Made by a program: the position numbers and the translations under genes. A DNA stretch of 55,058 nucleotides. Source: Beijerinckiaceae bacterium. Its GTDB lineage: Bacteria; Pseudomonadota; Alphaproteobacteria; Rhizobiales; Beijerinckiaceae. The DNA lies in NCBI GenBank assembly GCA_947452005.1, contig CANGBC010000013.1, positions 1 through 55,058 on the forward strand, written 5' to 3'. The notes below the pieces were generated by a model, which searched no databases, had not been told where the DNA came from, and was given only the letters and a program-made list of their open reading frames with translations. This document shows positions 8,364 to 55,058 of this stretch, in pieces (position 1 is the stretch's first letter; the number at the start of each line of letters is the position of its first letter).

Positions 8364-11300
8364 CTAAACATGCTCAACCGAGACGACGCCCGGAATGGCC
8401 TTGATCGCACCCGCCATTTGCGAGGTGACCTGGTAGCGACCGGGCAGTTTAACCTCAACTTCGCCGCGCTCTTTGTCGAGCATCAGGACGAAGGAAATCT
8501 CGCCCTCGCCGCGCGCGCCAAGGCGTGCCGAGAGTGAGGGCAGCGGGCTTTCATCGCGCAAGAAAATCCGCAGCCCCTTTTGCACACGTTGGGCAGCGAC
8601 CTCTAAGGCCTCCACCGAGACAATGCGCGCGCGCACGTCTTCGCCCTCAACATTGGCCTGCAATCCCACCAGCACAACCGCGCCTTTTTCGAGCAGGTCG
8701 CGATATTGGTTGAGGCCCTCCTGAAACATGATGGCCTCATATTGCCCGGTCTGATCCGACAAGGTGACAATGCCCATCTTGTTGCCAGACTTGGTGCGCC
8801 GCTCTGTGCGATCGAGAACAGCGGCGGCCAGACGCGCGGCTGTCGCGCCCTTCTTCACGGCTCGAGAAAATTCAGCCCAGCGTTCGACGCGCAGTTTTTC
8901 CATCACATTCTGATAATCATCGAGCGGATGGCCTGATAGGAAGAACCCGACCGCGTCAAATTCGCGCCGCAGCCGCTCGGCGGCGGGCCAGGACGGCACT
9001 TTGGGAACAACAATTTTTTCGGGCTCGGCCATGGCGCCACCAAACAGCGAGTCCTGCCCCCCTGCTCGCTCGGATTGTGTGCGATTGGCAATCGCCAGCA
9101 CCATCTCGAGCGCTGCAAAGGCACGCGCGCGATCAGGCTCCAATTCATCGAAAGCCCCTGCCGCGCAGAGCGATTCCAGCACGCGTTTGTTGACATCACG
9201 CGGGTTGATGCGGGCGGCAAAATCGCCCAGATCACGAAACGGCTTGGTTCCGCGTGTCTCGACAATGGCCGACGCCTGCCCCTCGCCCACGCCCTTCACC
9301 GCTGACAGCGCGTAGCGGATGATCAGCGTGCCGTCTTCCGTTTCATGCACGTCGAAATCAACGCCCGACGAGCGCAAGGACGGCGGCTCAACGCGAATGC
9401 CCAGACGGCGCGCTTCATTGCGGAATTCCGAGAGCTTGTCGGTATTGCCTTTGTCGAGCGTCATCGAGGCGGCGATAAATTCGACCGGATAATTGGCTTT
9501 GAACCAGCCTGTTTGATAGGCGATCAAGGCATAAGCGGCGGCGTGCGATTTGTTGAAACCGTAATCGGCAAATTTCGCCAACAGGTCGAAGATCTCATCG
9601 GACTTTTGCTTGGTGATGCCATTGGCGGTCGCGCCATTGACGAAGCGCTCGCGCTGCGCGTCCATCTCAGACTTGATCTTCTTGCCCATGGCGCGGCGCA
9701 GAAGATCGGCTTCGCCCAGCGAATAGCCCGACATGATCTGCGCGATCTGCATCACCTGCTCTTGGTAGATGATGACGCCGCAGGTTTCTTTCAGCACAGG
9801 CTCGATGAGCGGGTGAATATAATCAGCCTCAATCTCGCCGTGCTTCACCGCGCAATAGGTGGGGATATTGGCCATCGGGCCCGGGCGATAGAGCGCCACA
9901 AGCGCGATAATATCTTCCAGTCGGTCAGCGCGCATTTCTGCCAGCGCCTTGCGCATGCCAGCCGATTCCACCTGGAACACACCAATCGTTTCGCCGCGCC
10001 CCAGCATTTCATAGGTTTTCTTGTCATCCAGCGGAATGGCGCTGATGTCGACGTCAATGCCACGCTTCTTCAGCAACTCGACCGTGGTCGACAGCGTTGT
10101 GAGCGTCTTCAATCCCAGAAAGTCGAATTTGACGAGGCCCGCAGGCTCAACCCATTTCATATTAAACTGGGTGGCGGGCATATCCGATTTCGGATCGCGA
10201 TAGATGGGCACCAATTCATCAAGCGGGCGATCACCGATGACGATACCGGCCGCATGCGTTGAAGCGTTGGAATAAAGCCCTTCCAGCGTCTCGGCGATTT
10301 TGAGCATCTGGCCAACGCGCGGATCAGCCTCGGCCGCTTCGCGCAGGCGTGGTTCGGATTCAATCGCCTGTTTCAGCGATACAGGTGCAGCTGGATTTTG
10401 CGGCACGAGTTTGGCGAGCTTGTCGACTTGGCCCAATGGCATTTCGAGCACGCGCCCGACATTGCGCATCACGCCGCGTGCGAGAAACGAACCGAACGTG
10501 ATGATCTGCGCCACACGATCCGCGCCATAGCGCTGGCGCACATAGCGGATGACCTCTTCACGTCGCGTCTGGCAGAAGTCGATATCAAAGTCGGGCATCG
10601 ACACGCGTTCTGGATTGAGAAAGCGTTCGAACAGCAGGCCAAAGCGCAACGGATCAAGATCCGTGATGGTGAGCGCATAAGCGACCAGCGAGCCTGCACC
10701 CGAGCCACGGCCCGGCCCCACTGGAATGCCCTGCTGCTTGGCCCATTTGATAAAATCGGCCACGATCAGAAAGTAGCCGGGGAATTTCATGCGCGTGATG
10801 ATGGACAGCTCGAATTCGAGCCGCTCTTCGTAATCGCTGATCGCCAGATTGGGCGCAGCGCCATGCTTGTCGAGCCGCGCCTTGAGACCCTCGCGCGCCT
10901 GACGGGCGAGTTCTTTTTCTTCGGCCAATTCATCGCTTGCCGCATCGGCCGCCACGCCACCTGTGGTGAAGCGCGGCAGAATGGGGTTGCGGGTCAGCGG
11001 ACGATAGGAACAGCGCAGCGCAATGGCCACACTATTGTCGGTGGCTTCAGGAATATCGGCAAACAGCTCGATCATCTCGGCGCGCGTCTTGAAGCGATGT
11101 TCGCGCGTCAGCCGGCGACGATCTCCCGCTGACACAAGCGTGCTGTCGGAGATGCACAGCAGCGCATCATGGGCTTCATAATCAGAGCGCGCCGGGAAAT
11201 AAGGCTCGTTGCTGGCCACCAGCGGCAGAGCCATATCATAGGCCATGTCGATGAGATGGGGCTCAACAGAGCGCTCTTCATCTGTATCGTGGCGCTGCAA

Positions 11301-11852
11301 TTCGACATAAAGCCGCGTGTCGAAAAAGGGGCACAGGGCCTCCAGTCGGGCGCGGGCCACTTCGGGGCGGTTCATGCGCAGCACGCGATCAATGGGCCCA
11401 GATGGGCCACCTGTCAGCACGATGATGCCGGCTGCATGTTTTTGCACGAGCGCCAGCGGCACATGGGGCAGATCGCCAGCCTCCGGATCAAGCCAGGCTT
11501 TTGAGCTGAGCTTCATCAGGTTCAGATAGCCCTGCTCATTTTGCGCGATGAGAACAAGCGGCGCGCGTCCGACGCCATGAATATCAGCGCCGCGAGCGCC
11601 AAGCGTGGCGGCATCCCCAAAGTCGACCGTCAGGTGAATGCCGATGATTGGCTGGATGCCGTCCTTCGACATTTTCTCGGAAAACTCGAGCGCGCCGAAC
11701 AGATTGTTGGTGTCGGTGATGGCGAGCGCAGGCTGATTGTCGGCGGCGGCCAGTTTGCCAAGCTTGGCAATGGTCAGCGCGCCCTCACGCAGCGAGAAGG
11801 ACGTGTGGACGTGGAGATGGACAAAACCGACGTCTTTGATCACACGATTCAA
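8364..11852 (-). CDS. dnaE: DNA polymerase III subunit alpha
   Basis: This is the catalytic subunit of the replicative polymerase, 1162 residues, the normal DnaE1 length. An N-terminal PHP domain begins with the HLHVH motif (His12, His14). The polymerase active site is PDFDIDF at 420-426, with two of the catalytic aspartates at 423 and 425. The C-terminal part contains the usual HhH and OB-fold regions. The start is TTG at 11852, supported by GGGAG nine bases upstream. It lies downstream of the SOS-controlled small ORF on the same strand, separated by a 9-bp palindrome. A possible one-mismatch LexA site upstream is listed as rejected. It is the general replicative type rather than the mutagenesis type DnaE2, judged from the intact PHP motif and the absence of imuA/imuB next to it. 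Confidence 0.97.
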   Translation of the reverse strand: MNRVIKDVGFVHLHVHTSFSLREGALTIAKLGKLAAADNQPALAITDTNNLFGALEFSEKMSKDGIQPIIGIHLTVDFGDAATLGARGADIHGVGRAPLVLIAQNEQGYLNLMKLSSKAWLDPEAGDLPHVPLALVQKHAAGIIVLTGGPSGPIDRVLRMNRPEVARARLEALCPFFDTRLYVELQRHDTDEERSVEPHLIDMAYDMALPLVASNEPYFPARSDYEAHDALLCISDSTLVSAGDRRRLTREHRFKTRAEMIELFADIPEATDNSVAIALRCSYRPLTRNPILPRFTTGGVAADAASDELAEEKELARQAREGLKARLDKHGAAPNLAISDYEERLEFELSIITRMKFPGYFLIVADFIKWAKQQGIPVGPGRGSGAGSLVAYALTITDLDPLRFGLLFERFLNPERVSMPDFDIDFCQTRREEVIRYVRQRYGADRVAQIITFGSFLARGVMRNVGRVLEMPLGQVDKLAKLVPQNPAAPVSLKQAIESEPRLREAAEADPRVGQMLKIAETLEGLYSNASTHAAGIVIGDRPLDELVPIYRDPKSDMPATQFNMKWVEPAGLVKFDFLGLKTLTTLSTTVELLKKRGIDVDISAIPLDDKKTYEMLGRGETIGVFQVESAGMRKALAEMRADRLEDIIALVALYRPGPMANIPTYCAVKHGEIEADYIHPLIEPVLKETCGVIIYQEQVMQIAQIMSGYSLGEADLLRRAMGKKIKSEMDAQRERFVNGATANGITKQKSDEIFDLLAKFADYGFNKSHAAAYALIAYQTGWFKANYPVEFIAASMTLDKGNTDKLSEFRNEARRLGIRVEPPSLRSSGVDFDVHETEDGTLIIRYALSAVKGVGEGQASAIVETRGTKPFRDLGDFAARINPRDVNKRVLESLCAAGAFDELEPDRARAFAALEMVLAIANRTQSERAGGQDSLFGGAMAEPEKIVVPKVPSWPAAERLRREFDAVGFFLSGHPLDDYQNVMEKLRVERWAEFSRAVKKGATAARLAAAVLDRTERRTKSGNKMGIVTLSDQTGQYEAIMFQEGLNQYRDLLEKGAVVLVGLQANVEGEDVRARIVSVEALEVAAQRVQKGLRIFLRDESPLPSLSARLGARGEGEISFVLMLDKERGEVEVKLPGRYQVTSQMAGAIKAIPGVVSVEHV

Positions 11853-11939
11853 GGCCAGAAGCTCCCGTTAGGACGGCCCTTTATCGGCCAATCGAACGGG
11901 AGGTGAAAGCGCCATGGTAGAACCGTCAACAGTCCATGA

Positions 11940-11960
11940 CCCTCTCCCTATGGGAGAGGG
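11940..11960. repeat. Palindrome, family B (CCCTCTCCC-TAT-GGGAGAGGG)
   Basis: A perfect 9-bp inverted repeat with a 3-base loop lies between the small SOS ORF and dnaE. The same core recurs in the larger family B elements at 47148 and 54728. There is no T run on either side, so it is not a typical terminator, though the RNA hairpin could protect or attenuate the small-ORF transcript. Confidence 0.75.
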
Positions 11961-11965
11961 TAAAC

Positions 11966-12085
11966 TCAGACCGGCATGCCGCCCGTCATAGCATTGGCAA
12001 ACATGATGATGGCAGCCAGAAAGGCAGCAGCGGCCAGACCCTCGGCAATGTCCTCAGCGATGTTCTTCACGGCGACAGGAAACAT
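11966..12085 (-). CDS. Small SOS-controlled membrane protein (39 residues, predicted)
   Basis: The ATG at 12085 is preceded by GGAGG at ideal spacing (GGAGGttgttATG), and the frame ends in TGA at 11966. The product has an amphipathic N-terminus (residues 1-16, with K7, E11, D12, E15) followed by one hydrophobic segment at about 17-33 (LAAAAFLAAIIMFANAM), so one inner-membrane helix is expected. Its own promoter lies 26 bases upstream and carries a LexA box in the spacer. No family is recognised by sequence. The combination recalls SidA of Caulobacter, a tiny SOS-induced membrane inhibitor of cell division, but that is an analogy from size, topology and regulation, not homology. Alternatives are a toxin-like peptide or a membrane-stress peptide. 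Confidence 0.75.
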   Translation of the reverse strand: MFPVAVKNIAEDIAEGLAAAAFLAAIIMFANAMTGGMPV

Positions 12086-12110
12086 AACAACCTCCATCAG
12101 TCAGGATGAG

Positions 12111-12139
12111 AGTATGTTCTTGTTTTGTTCTAATGTCAA
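12111..12139 (-). promoter_or_regulatory. Sigma-70-type promoter with LexA (SOS) box in the spacer
   Basis: On the minus strand a perfect -35 TTGACA (12139-12134) is followed by a 17-bp spacer and a -10 CATACT (12116-12111). The spacer contains GAAC-AAAACAA-GAAC (12130-12116), which is the alphaproteobacterial SOS box GTTC-N7-GTTC read on the other strand. LexA bound here would cover the region between the -35 and -10 elements and block RNA polymerase. The only gene directly downstream is the 39-residue ORF. Confidence 0.85.
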
Positions 12140-12172: not shown

Positions 12173-12883
12173 CTAAACCTCTTCCGCCACAAACCGGCGC
12201 CAGCCCTCGGCGCGCAGCCGGCAGGCCGGGCATGAGCCGCAGCCCCGGCCCCAATCAAACTGGCCGGTCCGGTCGCCCATGTAGCAAGAATGCGTTTCCT
12301 CGCGCACAAGCGTCAGGAAATCCTCGCCGCCCAGCTCGCGCGCCAGCGCAAAGGTCTGCGCCTTGTCGATCCACATCAGCGGAGTTTCCAGAACAAAGCG
12401 GCGCTCCAGCCCGAGGTTCAGCGCCACCTGCATCGCCTTGATCGTGTCGTCCCGGCAATCGGGATAGCCCGAATAATCCGTCTCGCAGACACCCGTCACA
12501 ATGTGTTTCAAGCCCCGCCGATAGGCATAGGCAGCGGCAAAGGCGAGGAAGATCAGATTGCGGCCGGGCACGAATGTATTGGGCAAGCCATCGGCGCCCA
12601 TTTTCATTTCGACGTCCCGGGTCAATGCCGTGTTGGACAGCGTCCCAATCGCCTCGACCGGCACCACGACATCATCACCCAGCCTGCCCGCCCATTCCGG
12701 AAAGCGCGCACGGATCGAAGCAAGAACGTCAAGGCGGCATTGCATTTCAATCTTGTGGCGCTGGCCATAATCGAAGCCGATGGTCTCGACACGGTCGTAG
12801 CGTTCAAGCGCCCAGGCCAGACAGGTGGTTGAATCCTGACCACCCGAGAACAGAACAAGCGCCCCGCCGGATACCTGCACCAT
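12173..12883 (-). CDS. queC: 7-cyano-7-deazaguanine synthase
   Basis: QueC converts 7-carboxy-7-deazaguanine to preQ0 with ATP and ammonia, in queuosine biosynthesis in the cytoplasm. The PP-loop ATP motif SGGQDS is at residues 13-18. Four cysteines near the C-terminus (200, 215, 218, 221, in GCGSCPAC) form the expected zinc site. The length, 236 residues, is normal. The ATG lies five bases after the lolD stop, with GGAG upstream inside lolD, so it is the third gene of the lolE-lolD-queC operon. tgt and queA, later steps of the same pathway, lie in the same window on the same strand. Confidence 0.96.
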
Positions 12884-12888
12884 GTGCC

Positions 12889-13581
12889 CTACTCCAGCTC
12901 GACGATCTTGCCGTCACGCAAAGTGACACGCCGATCCATGCGCCGCGCGAGCTCCATATTATGGGTCGCGATCAAGGCTGCGAGGCCTGAATAGCGCACG
13001 AGATCAGCGAGTGCGCCGAACACATGGTCGGCGGTGCGCGGGTCAAGATTGCCGGTCGGCTCATCTGCCAGAAGAATGCGCGGCCCATTGGCCACCGCGC
13101 GCGCAATGGCGACGCGCTGTTGCTCGCCACCTGACAATTCACCGGGGCGATGCTGTTCGCGTGCGCCCAAACCCAGATAGTTCAAAAGCTCGCTGGCGCG
13201 CTCACGCGCGACCTTTTTGGTCAGGCCGCGGATCATCTGCGGCAGCATGACATTTTCGCTCGCCGTAAATTCGGGCAGCAGGTGATGGAATTGATAGACA
13301 AAGCCAATATCGAGACGCCGCAATGTGGTGCGCGCTTCATCATCAAGATGGCTCGTCGGATCGCGCCCGATGAACACTTCGCCGGCATCGGGTTTTTCCA
13401 GAAGACCTGCAATATGCAGCAGCGTCGACTTGCCAGCCCCCGAGGGCGCAATCATCGCCACGGATTGGCCGGGCCAGATGGCCAGCTCCGCGCCACGCAA
13501 AATAGCCAGCTCATTATCGCCCTGCTTGTAGCGGCGCTCGACGTTGCGAATGAAAAGGGCGGGATCACTCATGTCACTCAC
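12889..13581 (-). CDS. lolD: Lipoprotein-releasing ABC transporter, ATPase LolD
   Basis: This is the ATPase of the LolCDE machine, which extracts outer-membrane lipoproteins from the inner membrane and hands them to LolA. The 230-residue protein shows Walker A (PSGAGKST), the ABC signature ([14 protein letters not shown]) and Walker B ([12 protein letters not shown]). The ATG at 13581 overlaps the stop of the upstream permease gene by four bases (ATGA), implying translational coupling. MacB-type exporters share the fold; the paired LolC/E permease decides the assignment. Confidence 0.95.
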
Positions 13582-29041: not shown

Positions 29042-29438
29042 GAGGCTCTCCTGAAACTGTAAAGCGCCGGACCACAGACCCGCACGCACAAGCCGACTCG
29101 CTGGTCGCCCTGAATTCCCGCACACAGTAAACGCGCGCCCTGCCCAAAGCGCCCCAACGAAGAGGCGAAACAAGGGCTGTCCACAGCGCGGATGTGAGCG
29201 GAATCAGACCAAACCGAATCTGTTCACTATTTGTTCCTAACATGGAGCCCTGATCGCCGCAAGCGCCCGCCGCCGCCAGCGTGACGATTTGCACCGGGGA
29301 CGCGCATCCGGCCCCGGTCGCAATCCTCTGCCCGACGGGCTATTTCAAGGGCGAAAGCGGGAAACCGCAACGGCGCCTGGACCGTAAGACACATGACCGC
29401 GCGCGTGATCCGCGCGCCCACATCAGAAGCAAGAGCCA
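29042..29438. other. Divergent ssb/uvrA control region
   Basis: This 397-base gap holds one clear SOS box (29222-29236), about 180 bases from the ssb start and 200 from the uvrA start. The two 5' leaders are therefore long. No convincing -35/-10 pair was found around the box, and no short gene is supported. The uvrA-side leader is GC-rich with many short inverted repeats. Confidence 0.7.
29222..29236. promoter_or_regulatory. LexA (SOS) box between ssb and uvrA
   Basis: The sequence is GTTC-ACTATTT-GTTC, an exact match to the alphaproteobacterial LexA consensus GTTC-N7-GTTC. The location between divergent ssb and uvrA mirrors the shared SOS control of this pair in E. coli, so DNA damage is expected to raise one or both genes. 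Confidence 0.9.
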
Positions 29439-33722: not shown

Positions 33723-36113
33723 TCAGTAAAGTCCGCCCGTGCCTGTGCCAATCGACTGCTCGCCCATGGGCTCGCCGCCCACCAGCGCGAAATTGTCCGG
33801 CGGTGCAGTACCGGGCTTGAAAGCTTCCATAATCGTGCCGCCCCCAGACGAGCGCATGCCCGTCTTGGCATCGACACTGATCAGCTTGATTCCCGGCGGC
33901 ACACGGAACGGCACATCGGGCTTGTCCTTCAGCGCCGTCATCATGAAGTCGCGGAAGATCGGCGCAGCATATTGCCCAGCGGTCGCCGATGAGCCCAGAG
34001 AGCGCGGGCGGTCATAGCCCATATAAACGCCGACCGTCAGATTGGCCGAGAAGCCCACAAACCAGACGTCCTTAGCTTCATTGGTCGTGCCTGTCTTGCC
34101 CGCCAGATGTTTGCCGACCTGGCGCACCACCTGCGCGGTGCCACGTTGCACAACGCCTTCCATCATTGACACGATCTGATAGGCGCTGAGCGGATCAATG
34201 ACCTGCTCGCGAGCGTCGATGAGACGCGGCTCATTCTGATTGGCCCAACGGCCCGGATCGCAACCCTGACAATCGCGCTGGTCGTGACGATAGATCGTCT
34301 TGCCGAAACGGTCCTGAATGCGGTCGATCAAAGTCGGCTGAATGCGTTTGCCGCCATTGGCGAGCATCGAATAGGCGCCGACCATGCGCATCACAGTTGT
34401 TTCGCCCGCGCCCAACGACATTGAGGGAACGGGAAGCATATTGTCATAGACGCCAAAGCGCTTGGCATATTCAGCCACCAGCGGCAGGCCGACATCGCGG
34501 CCCAAACGCACCGACATCAGATTTTTGGAATGTTCAATGCCATAGCGCAACGTGCGCGGACCACCCGACTTGCCGTCATAATTTTCAGGACGCCAGATGC
34601 CAACGCCCGGGCCCAGATCGATTTCAATCGGCGCATCCATCACGATGGAGGACGGCGTGTATCCATTGTCGAGCGCGGTCGCATAGACAATCGGTTTGAA
34701 CGAGGAGCCGGGCTGGCGCAGAGCCTGCGTGGCGCGGTTGAATTCGGACTGGTCAAACGAGAAACCGCCAACCATCGCAAACACGCGACCTGTATAAGGA
34801 TCCATCGCAACAATGGCGCCGGAAATATCGGGGATCTGGCGCAGGCGATATTGGCCGGCCTTGCCTTCAACCGGCTCGACATAAATCACATCGCCCGATT
34901 GCAGCGCCTGACGCATTGGCTTGCGCGTCCATTTCACGCCATCAGCCGGGATTGTTCCCGTCACGCGCTCGCGATTGATTTCGCCGGAGCGTTCTTTGAC
35001 GGGCTGCAAACCGACGCGTGCGGATGAATCACTCACGTCCAGAACAACGGCCAGCCGCCAGGGCGACACGTCGCCGAGCACGGGAATTTCAGCAAGCGCC
35101 GGGCCCCAATCGCCAGACACATCGACCGAGCGCATGGCGCCACGAAAGCCGCGTGCTTCATCATAGCGCACCAGTCCATCGACCAGCGCCTTGCGTGCCC
35201 ACAGCTGCATTTTGGGATCCAGTGTGGCGCGCACCGACAGGCCGCCTTCATAGAGTTTCTTTTCGCCATAGCGGTCGAGCAATTCGCGACGCACTTCTTC
35301 GGCGAAATAACCGGCTGCATAAGAATTGGGTGAGAGCACGCGCGGATTGACGCCCAGCGGTTCCGTCTTGGCCTTCTCGCCTTCCGCACTGGTGATCGCG
35401 CCGTCTGCCGTCATGCGATCAATCACATAATTGCGGCGCGCAATCGCAGCATCGCGATAGCGGAAGGGATGATAATTATTGGGGCCTTTGGGCAGAGCGG
35501 CGAGGTAAGCAGCCTCTGAGAGCGTCAGCTCTTGGGCGGCCTTGCCGTAATAATTCAGCGCCGCAGCCGCAATGCCGTAATTGCCGAGCCCCAGATAAAT
35601 CTCGTTCAGATAAAGTTCGAGAATACGCTCTTTGGAATAGGCCGCTTCAATGCGGAACGAGAGCAAAGCTTCGCGGATCTTGCGCTCGAAGGAGCGCTCA
35701 TTGCCGAGCAAGAAGTTTTTGGCGACCTGCTGCGTGATGGTGGAGGCGCCCTGCACGCGCTTGGAGCCTTGCAGCATGATCACGACAGCGCGCGCGATGC
35801 CTTCGGGATCAATGCCATTGTGCGAATAGAAATTCTTGTCTTCGGCCGAGATGAAAGCCTGTTTCACCATCGGTGGAATGGCGGACGAGGGCAGATAGAG
35901 GCGGCGCTCGCGCGCATATTCGGCGATCAGCGAACCATCGCCCGCATGCACGCGCGTCATCACCGGCGGCTCGTAATTTTGCAGCTGCGTATAATCGGGC
36001 AGATCCTGCTGGAAGTGCCAGACAAGCCCCGCCGTCACGGCAGAGCCGAGCACAAACAGGATCGCGCCTGTGGCAAATGCAAAGCCGAAGAAACGCGCTA
36101 TCAGCCGTATCAC
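33723..36113 (-). CDS. mrcA: Penicillin-binding protein 1A (bifunctional)
   Basis: A class A PBP of 796 residues, which polymerises and cross-links peptidoglycan in the periplasm. One N-terminal membrane anchor lies at about 10-32. The glycosyltransferase domain has the catalytic Glu91 in AEDKNFYSHNG and the segment GASTITQQVAKNFLL. An OB-like insertion precedes the transpeptidase, whose motifs are SSFK (Ser470, Lys473), SKN (529-531) and KTGT (673-676). Start GTG 36113 with AGGG upstream. It lies between amiC and prfB on the same strand, a common alphaproteobacterial order. Confidence 0.97.
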   Translation of the reverse strand: MIRLIARFFGFAFATGAILFVLGSAVTAGLVWHFQQDLPDYTQLQNYEPPVMTRVHAGDGSLIAEYARERRLYLPSSAIPPMVKQAFISAEDKNFYSHNGIDPEGIARAVVIMLQGSKRVQGASTITQQVAKNFLLGNERSFERKIREALLSFRIEAAYSKERILELYLNEIYLGLGNYGIAAAALNYYGKAAQELTLSEAAYLAALPKGPNNYHPFRYRDAAIARRNYVIDRMTADGAITSAEGEKAKTEPLGVNPRVLSPNSYAAGYFAEEVRRELLDRYGEKKLYEGGLSVRATLDPKMQLWARKALVDGLVRYDEARGFRGAMRSVDVSGDWGPALAEIPVLGDVSPWRLAVVLDVSDSSARVGLQPVKERSGEINRERVTGTIPADGVKWTRKPMRQALQSGDVIYVEPVEGKAGQYRLRQIPDISGAIVAMDPYTGRVFAMVGGFSFDQSEFNRATQALRQPGSSFKPIVYATALDNGYTPSSIVMDAPIEIDLGPGVGIWRPENYDGKSGGPRTLRYGIEHSKNLMSVRLGRDVGLPLVAEYAKRFGVYDNMLPVPSMSLGAGETTVMRMVGAYSMLANGGKRIQPTLIDRIQDRFGKTIYRHDQRDCQGCDPGRWANQNEPRLIDAREQVIDPLSAYQIVSMMEGVVQRGTAQVVRQVGKHLAGKTGTTNEAKDVWFVGFSANLTVGVYMGYDRPRSLGSSATAGQYAAPIFRDFMMTALKDKPDVPFRVPPGIKLISVDAKTGMRSSGGGTIMEAFKPGTAPPDNFALVGGEPMGEQSIGTGTGGLY

Positions 36114-54696: not shown

Positions 54697-55058
54697 ACGT
54701 GAACCCAAACACGTTCGCTCTTTCATTCTCCTAGAGGGAGAAGGTGGTAATGCAGTGGCCGGTTGAGGGGTTACCCTCTAGCCGCATGAAGCTTCAACCC
54801 TCACCCCGCTGCATGCGCAGCGACCCTCTCCCTCTGGGAGAGGGTACCTCCTCAGTCGCTCGCAATGACGAAGGAGGAGCAACCCGCCAGCCTCGTCATT
54901 GCGAGGAGCGTAGCGACGAAGCAATCCATGGCGGTGCTCTCAATCCTGCAAGACGCGACCATGGATTGCCACGTCGGCCTGACGGCCTCCTCGCAATGAC
55001 GAAGGAGAAGCGACCCGCCAGCCTCGACATTGCGAGGAGCGTAGCGACGAAGCAATCC
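54697..55058. repeat. Cluster of palindromic elements (family B then family A) at window end
   Basis: 362 bases with no gene. 54728-54849 is a family B element (TTCTCCTAGAGGGAGAA, then CGCTGCATGCGCAGCG, then CCCTCTCCCTCTGGGAGAGGG). A half family A end (TCGCTCGCAATGACGAAGGA) follows, then a full family A element from about 54895 to 55001 (CGTCATTGCGAGGAGCGTAG to CTCGCAATGACG), and the start of another at 55025 that runs off the window. The two A copies share the spacer GAAGGAG-AGC-ACCCGCCAGCCTCG. Confidence 0.85.

Follow-up and report, generated by a model that had tools for sequence, protein, structure and literature searches.

A LexA-box membrane peptide encoded before dnaE in Beijerinckiaceae, a probable divergent relative of the Caulobacter division inhibitor SidA

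The 55,058-nucleotide stretch of Beijerinckiaceae DNA analysed here (the window) holds, directly before dnaE, a 39-codon reading frame for a putative single-helix membrane peptide, placed behind a promoter whose spacer carries an exact LexA-type box. In our judgement this frame is probably a divergent orthologue of SidA that would halt septation during DNA damage. The explanation is carried by the anatomy of promoter and operator, purifying selection on the frame, recurrence of the unit across the class, synteny with sidA, and a transitive sequence link to SidA.

Reading the minus strand confirms the arrangement that had been proposed from the sequence alone, namely TTGACA, a 17-nt spacer and CATACT enclosing an exact SOS box, followed by a 39-codon single-helix frame between queC and dnaE (Table 1). 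One distance needs correcting: the 26 bases that had been counted to the ribosome site lead from the -10 hexamer to the ATG. The promoter hexamers make 10 of 12 matches, and no other promoter-like site was found between 11700 and 12400, where shuffled sequences average 0.1. The frame starts with the ATG at 12085, runs for 39 codons down to 11969 and ends with the stop codon at 11966-11968, giving the peptide MFPVAVKNIAEDIAEGLAAAAFLAAIIMFANAMTGGMPV. An alternative ATG at 12097 would yield 43 residues, but it overlaps the ribosome site. The product has a single strongly hydrophobic segment, with a hydropathy of 2.19 over 17 residues. Three traits of the broad SidA-like group proposed here can be recognised: by sequence match, a LexA box in the promoter; a place directly upstream of dnaE and in the same direction; and, behind a ribosome site, a short predicted product with a single hydrophobic helix, its length falling within the 26-47 residues of the peptide set.

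Table 1. Coordinates of the peptide unit, its neighbours and a second LexA-type box in the window
Feature	Position	Strand	Evidence or remark
-35 hexamer TTGACA	12134..12139	-	motif match; common to 6/6 aligned close genomes
LexA (SOS) box GTTCTTGTTTTGTTC / GAACAAAACAAGAAC, exact GTTCN7GTTC	12116..12130	.	within promoter spacer
-10 hexamer CATACT	12111..12116	-	one base common to LexA box
Ribosome-binding site TGGAGG	12091..12096	-	same in 6/6 aligned close genomes
39-aa SidA-like membrane peptide, one predicted helix	11966..12085 (stop included)	-	synonymous-dominated change; profile match
10-bp perfect hairpin, RNA ACCCUCUCCC-AUA-GGGAGAGGGU	11939..11961	-	directly after peptide stop, no T tract
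dnaE, DNA polymerase III alpha, TTG start, downstream neighbour	8364..11852	-	NF004226 above cut-off
queC, upstream neighbour	12173..12883	-	TIGR00364 above cut-off
LolD-type ABC ATPase	12889..13581	-	best model TIGR02211, 245 bits, below 308-bit cut-off
Second LexA-type box GTTCACTATTTGTTC	29222..29236	.	between divergent ssb (-) and uvrA (+)

Taken by itself, the box pattern is weak evidence, since the window holds three exact LexA-type boxes against 1.35 expected and the whole assembly (2.03 Mb, 58% complete) holds 26, whereas the reversed pattern, taken as a control, occurs 84 times. The frame is accepted as a gene because its coding sequence is conserved through synonymous-dominated change, and not because of the box alone. 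Six aligned close genomes have GAACAAAACA(A/G)GAACAT, TTGACA and the ribosome site in common, and the flanking DNA farther from these elements is more variable. Over about 29 synonymous and 91 non-synonymous sites, the comparison with five same-genus relatives gives synonymous/non-synonymous differences of 14/0 (G096, peptide identical), 16/1 (G181), 14.5/2.5 (G067), 9.5/2.5 (G185) and 22.3/16.7 (G191). Judged by these substitution patterns, the reading frame is under purifying selection. Conservation in related genomes had been suggested as a check, and the -35 hexamer, the box and the frame are all kept in five close relatives. With box and frame both conserved, the sequence-only reading of a dedicated, putatively LexA-controlled membrane peptide is strongly supported.

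The unit recurs throughout the genus. Of 51 genomes searched, 42 yielded the dnaE start, and 30 of these loci, the window included, were read. The peptide stands before dnaE in 27 of them, behind an exact box in 20 cases, a box with 7/8 bases in four and one with 6/8 in three; in two of the three remaining loci it lies apart from dnaE.

Across the Alphaproteobacteria we used a class-wide draw (385 genomes, 361 with a dnaE match, of which the 89 best-scoring loci were read) and a named set (80 genomes found with a CtrA query, 50 hand-chosen, with dnaE found in 48). Among loci with at least 450 nt of upstream sequence, an exact GAACN7GAAC lies in the 500 nt before dnaE in 72/161 and the opposite orientation, GTTCN7GTTC, in 17/161. 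In a control interval 1000-1500 nt upstream, which is largely coding DNA, the counts are 0/155 and 1/155, respectively, and inside dnaE either orientation is found in 1/85. A ribosome site, an ATG and a predicted membrane frame of 24-60 residues follow the box in 69/72 loci, against 3/1440 shuffles and 0/72 reverse complements, these figures coming from criteria set after examples had been seen and from loci that are phylogenetically non-independent. Exact box and membrane frame occur together in 26/89 class loci, and are absent as a pair from the other 63/89. In the named set, the peptide stands before dnaE behind an exact box in 29/48 genomes (reversed in one, L239) and behind a box with 7/8 bases in 9/48, six of which are labelled Caulobacter; the unit is apart from dnaE in 2/48, there is no clear peptide in 6/48 (both Hyphomicrobium included), and 2/48 are doubtful. 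The unit is present in Bradyrhizobium, Afipia, Rhodopseudomonas, Tardiphaga, Microvirga and Methylobacterium, and also in Devosia, Aurantimonas, Hoeflea, Phenylobacterium and Brevundimonas. Between the peptide and dnaE lie roughly 25 to 450 nt, depending on the locus.

Searches with the peptide alone lead back to the same boxes. A class-wide profile of 40 peptides, blind to the DNA, matches in 37/385 genomes at E <= 0.01. For 27 of the 30 matches inspected an exact LexA box lies directly upstream, and for another a box with 7/8 bases; nine further matches were left out, and many of the matched genomes had supplied members of the profile. Five of the matched genomes (G196, G429, G360, G274 and G388) were previously unseen, and each has an exact box. 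An earlier class-wide search, made with the window-genus profile A1, was discarded: its matches at E <= 0.1, in 32/385 genomes, were mostly chance matches in long frames, although they included the window's own genome and two others judged real. The peptide starts in L265, L270 and L271 were picked by alignment, and in L026 a frame behind a box inside lolD was replaced by the peptide behind that locus's own 7-of-8 box. Two loci with exact boxes were dropped from the peptide set: in L251 (Pleomorphomonas) the following frame has an unclear start, and in L282 (Brevundimonas SSC2) it reads on. They are possibly decayed or misread copies.

Paired boxes are seen at several loci. Boxes in the same orientation, 18 nt apart, occur in Caulobacteraceae (L273, L281, L275, L277, L279, L280 and L265), those of Caulobacter having 7/8 bases each. 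In Bradyrhizobium-type loci (L238, L240, L243, L244 and L246) the distance is again 18 nt, with the second box reversed, and in Microvirga (L241 and L247) it is 21 nt. Such spacing may be relevant to LexA binding.

Caulobacter hibisci and the Caulobacter strains D5, BK020 and AP07 encode a 29-residue peptide before dnaE, preceded by two boxes of 7/8 bases each, 18 nt apart. The NCBIfam model for the cell division inhibitor SidA, NF033228, scores the hibisci/D5 peptide at 72.4 bits and that of BK020 at 71.6, against a cut-off of 35. On the far side of the peptide, in antisense, these four strains carry an inosine-uridine nucleoside hydrolase gene (identified by a Pfam test of the hibisci protein); three further Caulobacter-labelled genomes have a different far-side gene. 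In the published records sidA is given as CCNA_02004 (PMC10769358), CCNA_02005 as an inosine-uridine nucleoside hydrolase (PMC3667746) and dnaE as CC1926 (PMC1839093), and from the numbering we infer that dnaE is CCNA_02003. Thus the NF033228 match of hibisci/D5 and BK020 and the hydrolase neighbour, agreeing with the published loci, identify SidA as the peptide encoded upstream of dnaE in Caulobacter.

Compared directly, the window peptide and SidA do not meet. NF033228 gives no match to the window peptide up to E = 10. The model matches 6/40 peptides of set A3, and exceeds its cut-off in 1/385 class genomes and in one of 14 control genomes, seven of which give a match of any kind, Caulobacter vibrioides included. 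With a profile built from Caulobacteraceae only, the window peptide does not stand out from shuffled versions of itself (p = 0.36), and 8/24 window-genus peptides reach p < 0.01; in the reverse test, the window-genus profile gives this level for only 2/13 Caulobacteraceae peptides. The two ends are joined by a bridging profile from which both Caulobacteraceae and the window genus had been left out. With it, 24/24 distinct window-genus peptides beat all 1000 of their shuffles, the window peptide scoring 14.6 bits against 9.3 for the best of its 1000 shuffles, and so do 12/13 distinct Caulobacteraceae peptides. The sequence link between the window peptide and SidA is therefore transitive, via intermediates from the rest of the class. 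An alignment of 32 peptides is nearly gapless, and no column in it reaches 90% conservation. An acidic residue recurs near the start of the helix (E7 for Caulobacter, D12 for the window peptide), with a Phe ten positions on.

SidA had been invoked earlier as an analogy, with no claim of homology. The direct comparison is negative, but the same place before dnaE and the intermediates that link the sequences suggest that the analogy is most likely true homology. Because the NF033228 score test failed, the window peptide is kept out of the curated SidA equivalog, and is best described as a putative divergent SidA-like orthologue. Among the papers listed in our literature search we recognised none describing SidA beyond the Caulobacter lineage, though the founding paper (10.1101/gad.2038911) may mention relatives.

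SidA is described as an SOS-induced division inhibitor acting on FtsW/FtsN (PMC4211646, PMC13396833), and low-confidence models place it at FtsW TM7 (PMC13396833). Damage induction and division arrest are predicted for the window peptide because they are known for SidA, whose mechanism is likely to have been carried over by homology; LexA binding, membrane topology and an FtsW/FtsN target would be shared on the same grounds. Upon DNA damage, RecA would trigger the self-cleavage of LexA, releasing the LexA-box promoter. A short transcript would then be made and translated into the 39-residue peptide, which would insert into the inner membrane as a single helix and keep the assembled septal wall synthase (FtsW/FtsI/FtsN) inactive until the damage is repaired.

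The target of such a helix could have changed during divergence. Growth from the pole is found in many Hyphomicrobiales, and this, along with the N-terminal extension of the window peptide and its lack of direct similarity to SidA, leaves room for a SidA homologue that would stop growth or division in the SOS response through another target (a divisome protein, the elongasome or the polar-growth machinery). We consider this unlikely, as the transmembrane core, with its acidic residue and the Phe ten positions on, aligns with SidA almost gaplessly. Less probable still is an SOS membrane toxin of the TisB/DinQ type, which would depolarise the membrane and bring about dormancy. LexA control, shortness and a single hydrophobic helix would suit it, and DinQ of E. 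coli is reported as an SOS-regulated single-helix toxic peptide (PMC3567139). Against a toxin stand the homology to the division inhibitor SidA, by position and, via intermediates, by profile, the acidic residue that recurs at the helix start, and a ribosome site that lies near the promoter with no long leader.

The surroundings of the unit bear on a third possibility, that the frame is a leader peptide or promoter unit serving the SOS induction of dnaE. The conserved linkage to dnaE would favour this, as would the fact that no terminator was found in the window. The stretch that forms the hairpin after the peptide stop folds at -24.2 kcal/mol (z -2.56); at this position relatives L008 and L012 have T runs after the stop codon, which argue against a dnaE leader, and L010 and L011 are without the hairpin region. 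Also at odds with a leader are the variable spacing to dnaE and the selection acting on the peptide sequence itself. The unit also exists apart from dnaE. The relocation search covered 13 genomes lacking a clear peptide at dnaE or with a dnaE locus previously unread. An exact box and peptide with no dnaE in the following 1.5 kb were found in Mesorhizobium (where the boxes overlap), Brevundimonas bacteroides, G119 and G168, and in G174 the peptide follows a 7-of-8 box at a distance of about 4 kb from dnaE. Mesorhizobium, G119 and G174 have kept lolD ahead of the unit, so that in these it was dnaE, and not the peptide, that was separated; this retention at three separated units also supports orthology. 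There were no matches in either Hyphomicrobium genome or in Oryzicola, and only weaker ones with no convincing box in Methylobacterium bullatum, a Methylocystaceae bin, a Hyphomonadaceae bin, Pleomorphomonas and G165. Ten weak matches were checked for nearby boxes: nine have none, and the tenth has a 7-of-8 box 6 nt off, on the other strand. Given the box-peptide units apart from dnaE, the leader reading is rejected as very improbable. A chance frame behind a chance box, a pattern which by itself does arise by chance, is practically excluded by the conservation of box, frame and place across the class.

Several features of the locus are recorded in their own right. Upstream of the peptide unit, many other loci usually have lolD; in the window and several same-genus loci queC separates the LolD-type gene from the peptide, and in other loci lolD adjoins directly. 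The inverted repeat CCCTCTCCC-NNN-GGGAGAGGG within the hairpin (11940-11960) occurs again at 54824-54844, although by chance no copy would be expected; it may represent a dispersed repeat or a terminator stem. Searched against Rfam, the window gave no match. Of the other boxes, one lies between ssb and uvrA, a classical SOS pair. The third exact box of the window, GTTCAGATAAAGTTC at 35604-35618, is inside long frames on both strands and is probably a chance occurrence. On another contig, boxes with an A+T-rich spacer stand before a ComM-like gene (PF13541; G000:C5:65815, L297) and between apparent rmuC and peptide deformylase genes, named by eye (G000:C5:16933, L296). The box type fits known SOS targets, as judged from the ssb/uvrA box and that of the ComM-like gene. 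LexA was not found in the 58%-complete source assembly, and is present in 33/41 genomes of the genus.

With a divergent SidA orthologue as the preferred reading, a wider scenario can be proposed, for and against which we see the chances as evenly balanced. SidA would then be no peculiarity of Caulobacter but the diverged end of a checkpoint ancestral to the Alphaproteobacteria, in which a LexA-sidA unit stood between lolD and the gene for the replicative polymerase. Rhizobial, Bradyrhizobium-type, methylotroph and Caulobacter lineages would have inherited this unit, and in other lineages it would have disappeared or become separated from dnaE, its linkage to dnaE possibly coupling polymerase supply to a division brake. 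As far as the papers searched show, it is undescribed how Alphaproteobacteria beyond the Caulobacter lineage, among them Bradyrhizobium, Rhodopseudomonas, Mesorhizobium and Methylobacterium, arrest division upon DNA damage. For these lineages the peptide is a candidate division-arrest gene at a predictable address, one whose shortness makes it easily overlooked in annotation. The series of peptides should also allow mapping of the residues by which a helix of about 30 residues would switch off FtsW.

Among known systems, TisB of E. coli is an SOS-controlled single-helix peptide, and the toxicity of DinQ and TisB consists of membrane depolarisation. DinQ resembles the window peptide in being SOS-controlled and single-helix, and differs as a toxic peptide under antisense RNA control (PMC3567139). 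YneA of Bacillus, SosA of Staphylococcus and ChiZ of Mycobacterium are presented as damage-induced small membrane inhibitors of late division, ChiZ differing by its LysM domain (PMC13396833), and yneA, chiZ and sidA have been termed unrelated genes (PMC4211646). DidA of Caulobacter (CCNA_03212) is described as a single-helix division inhibitor of the same septal complex, but it has 71 residues, is SOS-independent and binds FtsN. The closest likeness is to SidA of Caulobacter crescentus (CCNA_02004; NF033228). As judged from Caulobacter relatives, SidA has the same place directly before dnaE, LexA-type boxes in the promoter region, a ribosome site, a length of some 30 residues, a single hydrophobic helix, and an alignable core that includes the acidic residue and the Phe ten positions on. 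The window peptide differs in having 39 residues where SidA has 29, in failing NF033228 and lacking the FVWM motif, and in being preceded by one exact box where four Caulobacter strains have two 7-of-8 boxes, 18 nt apart.
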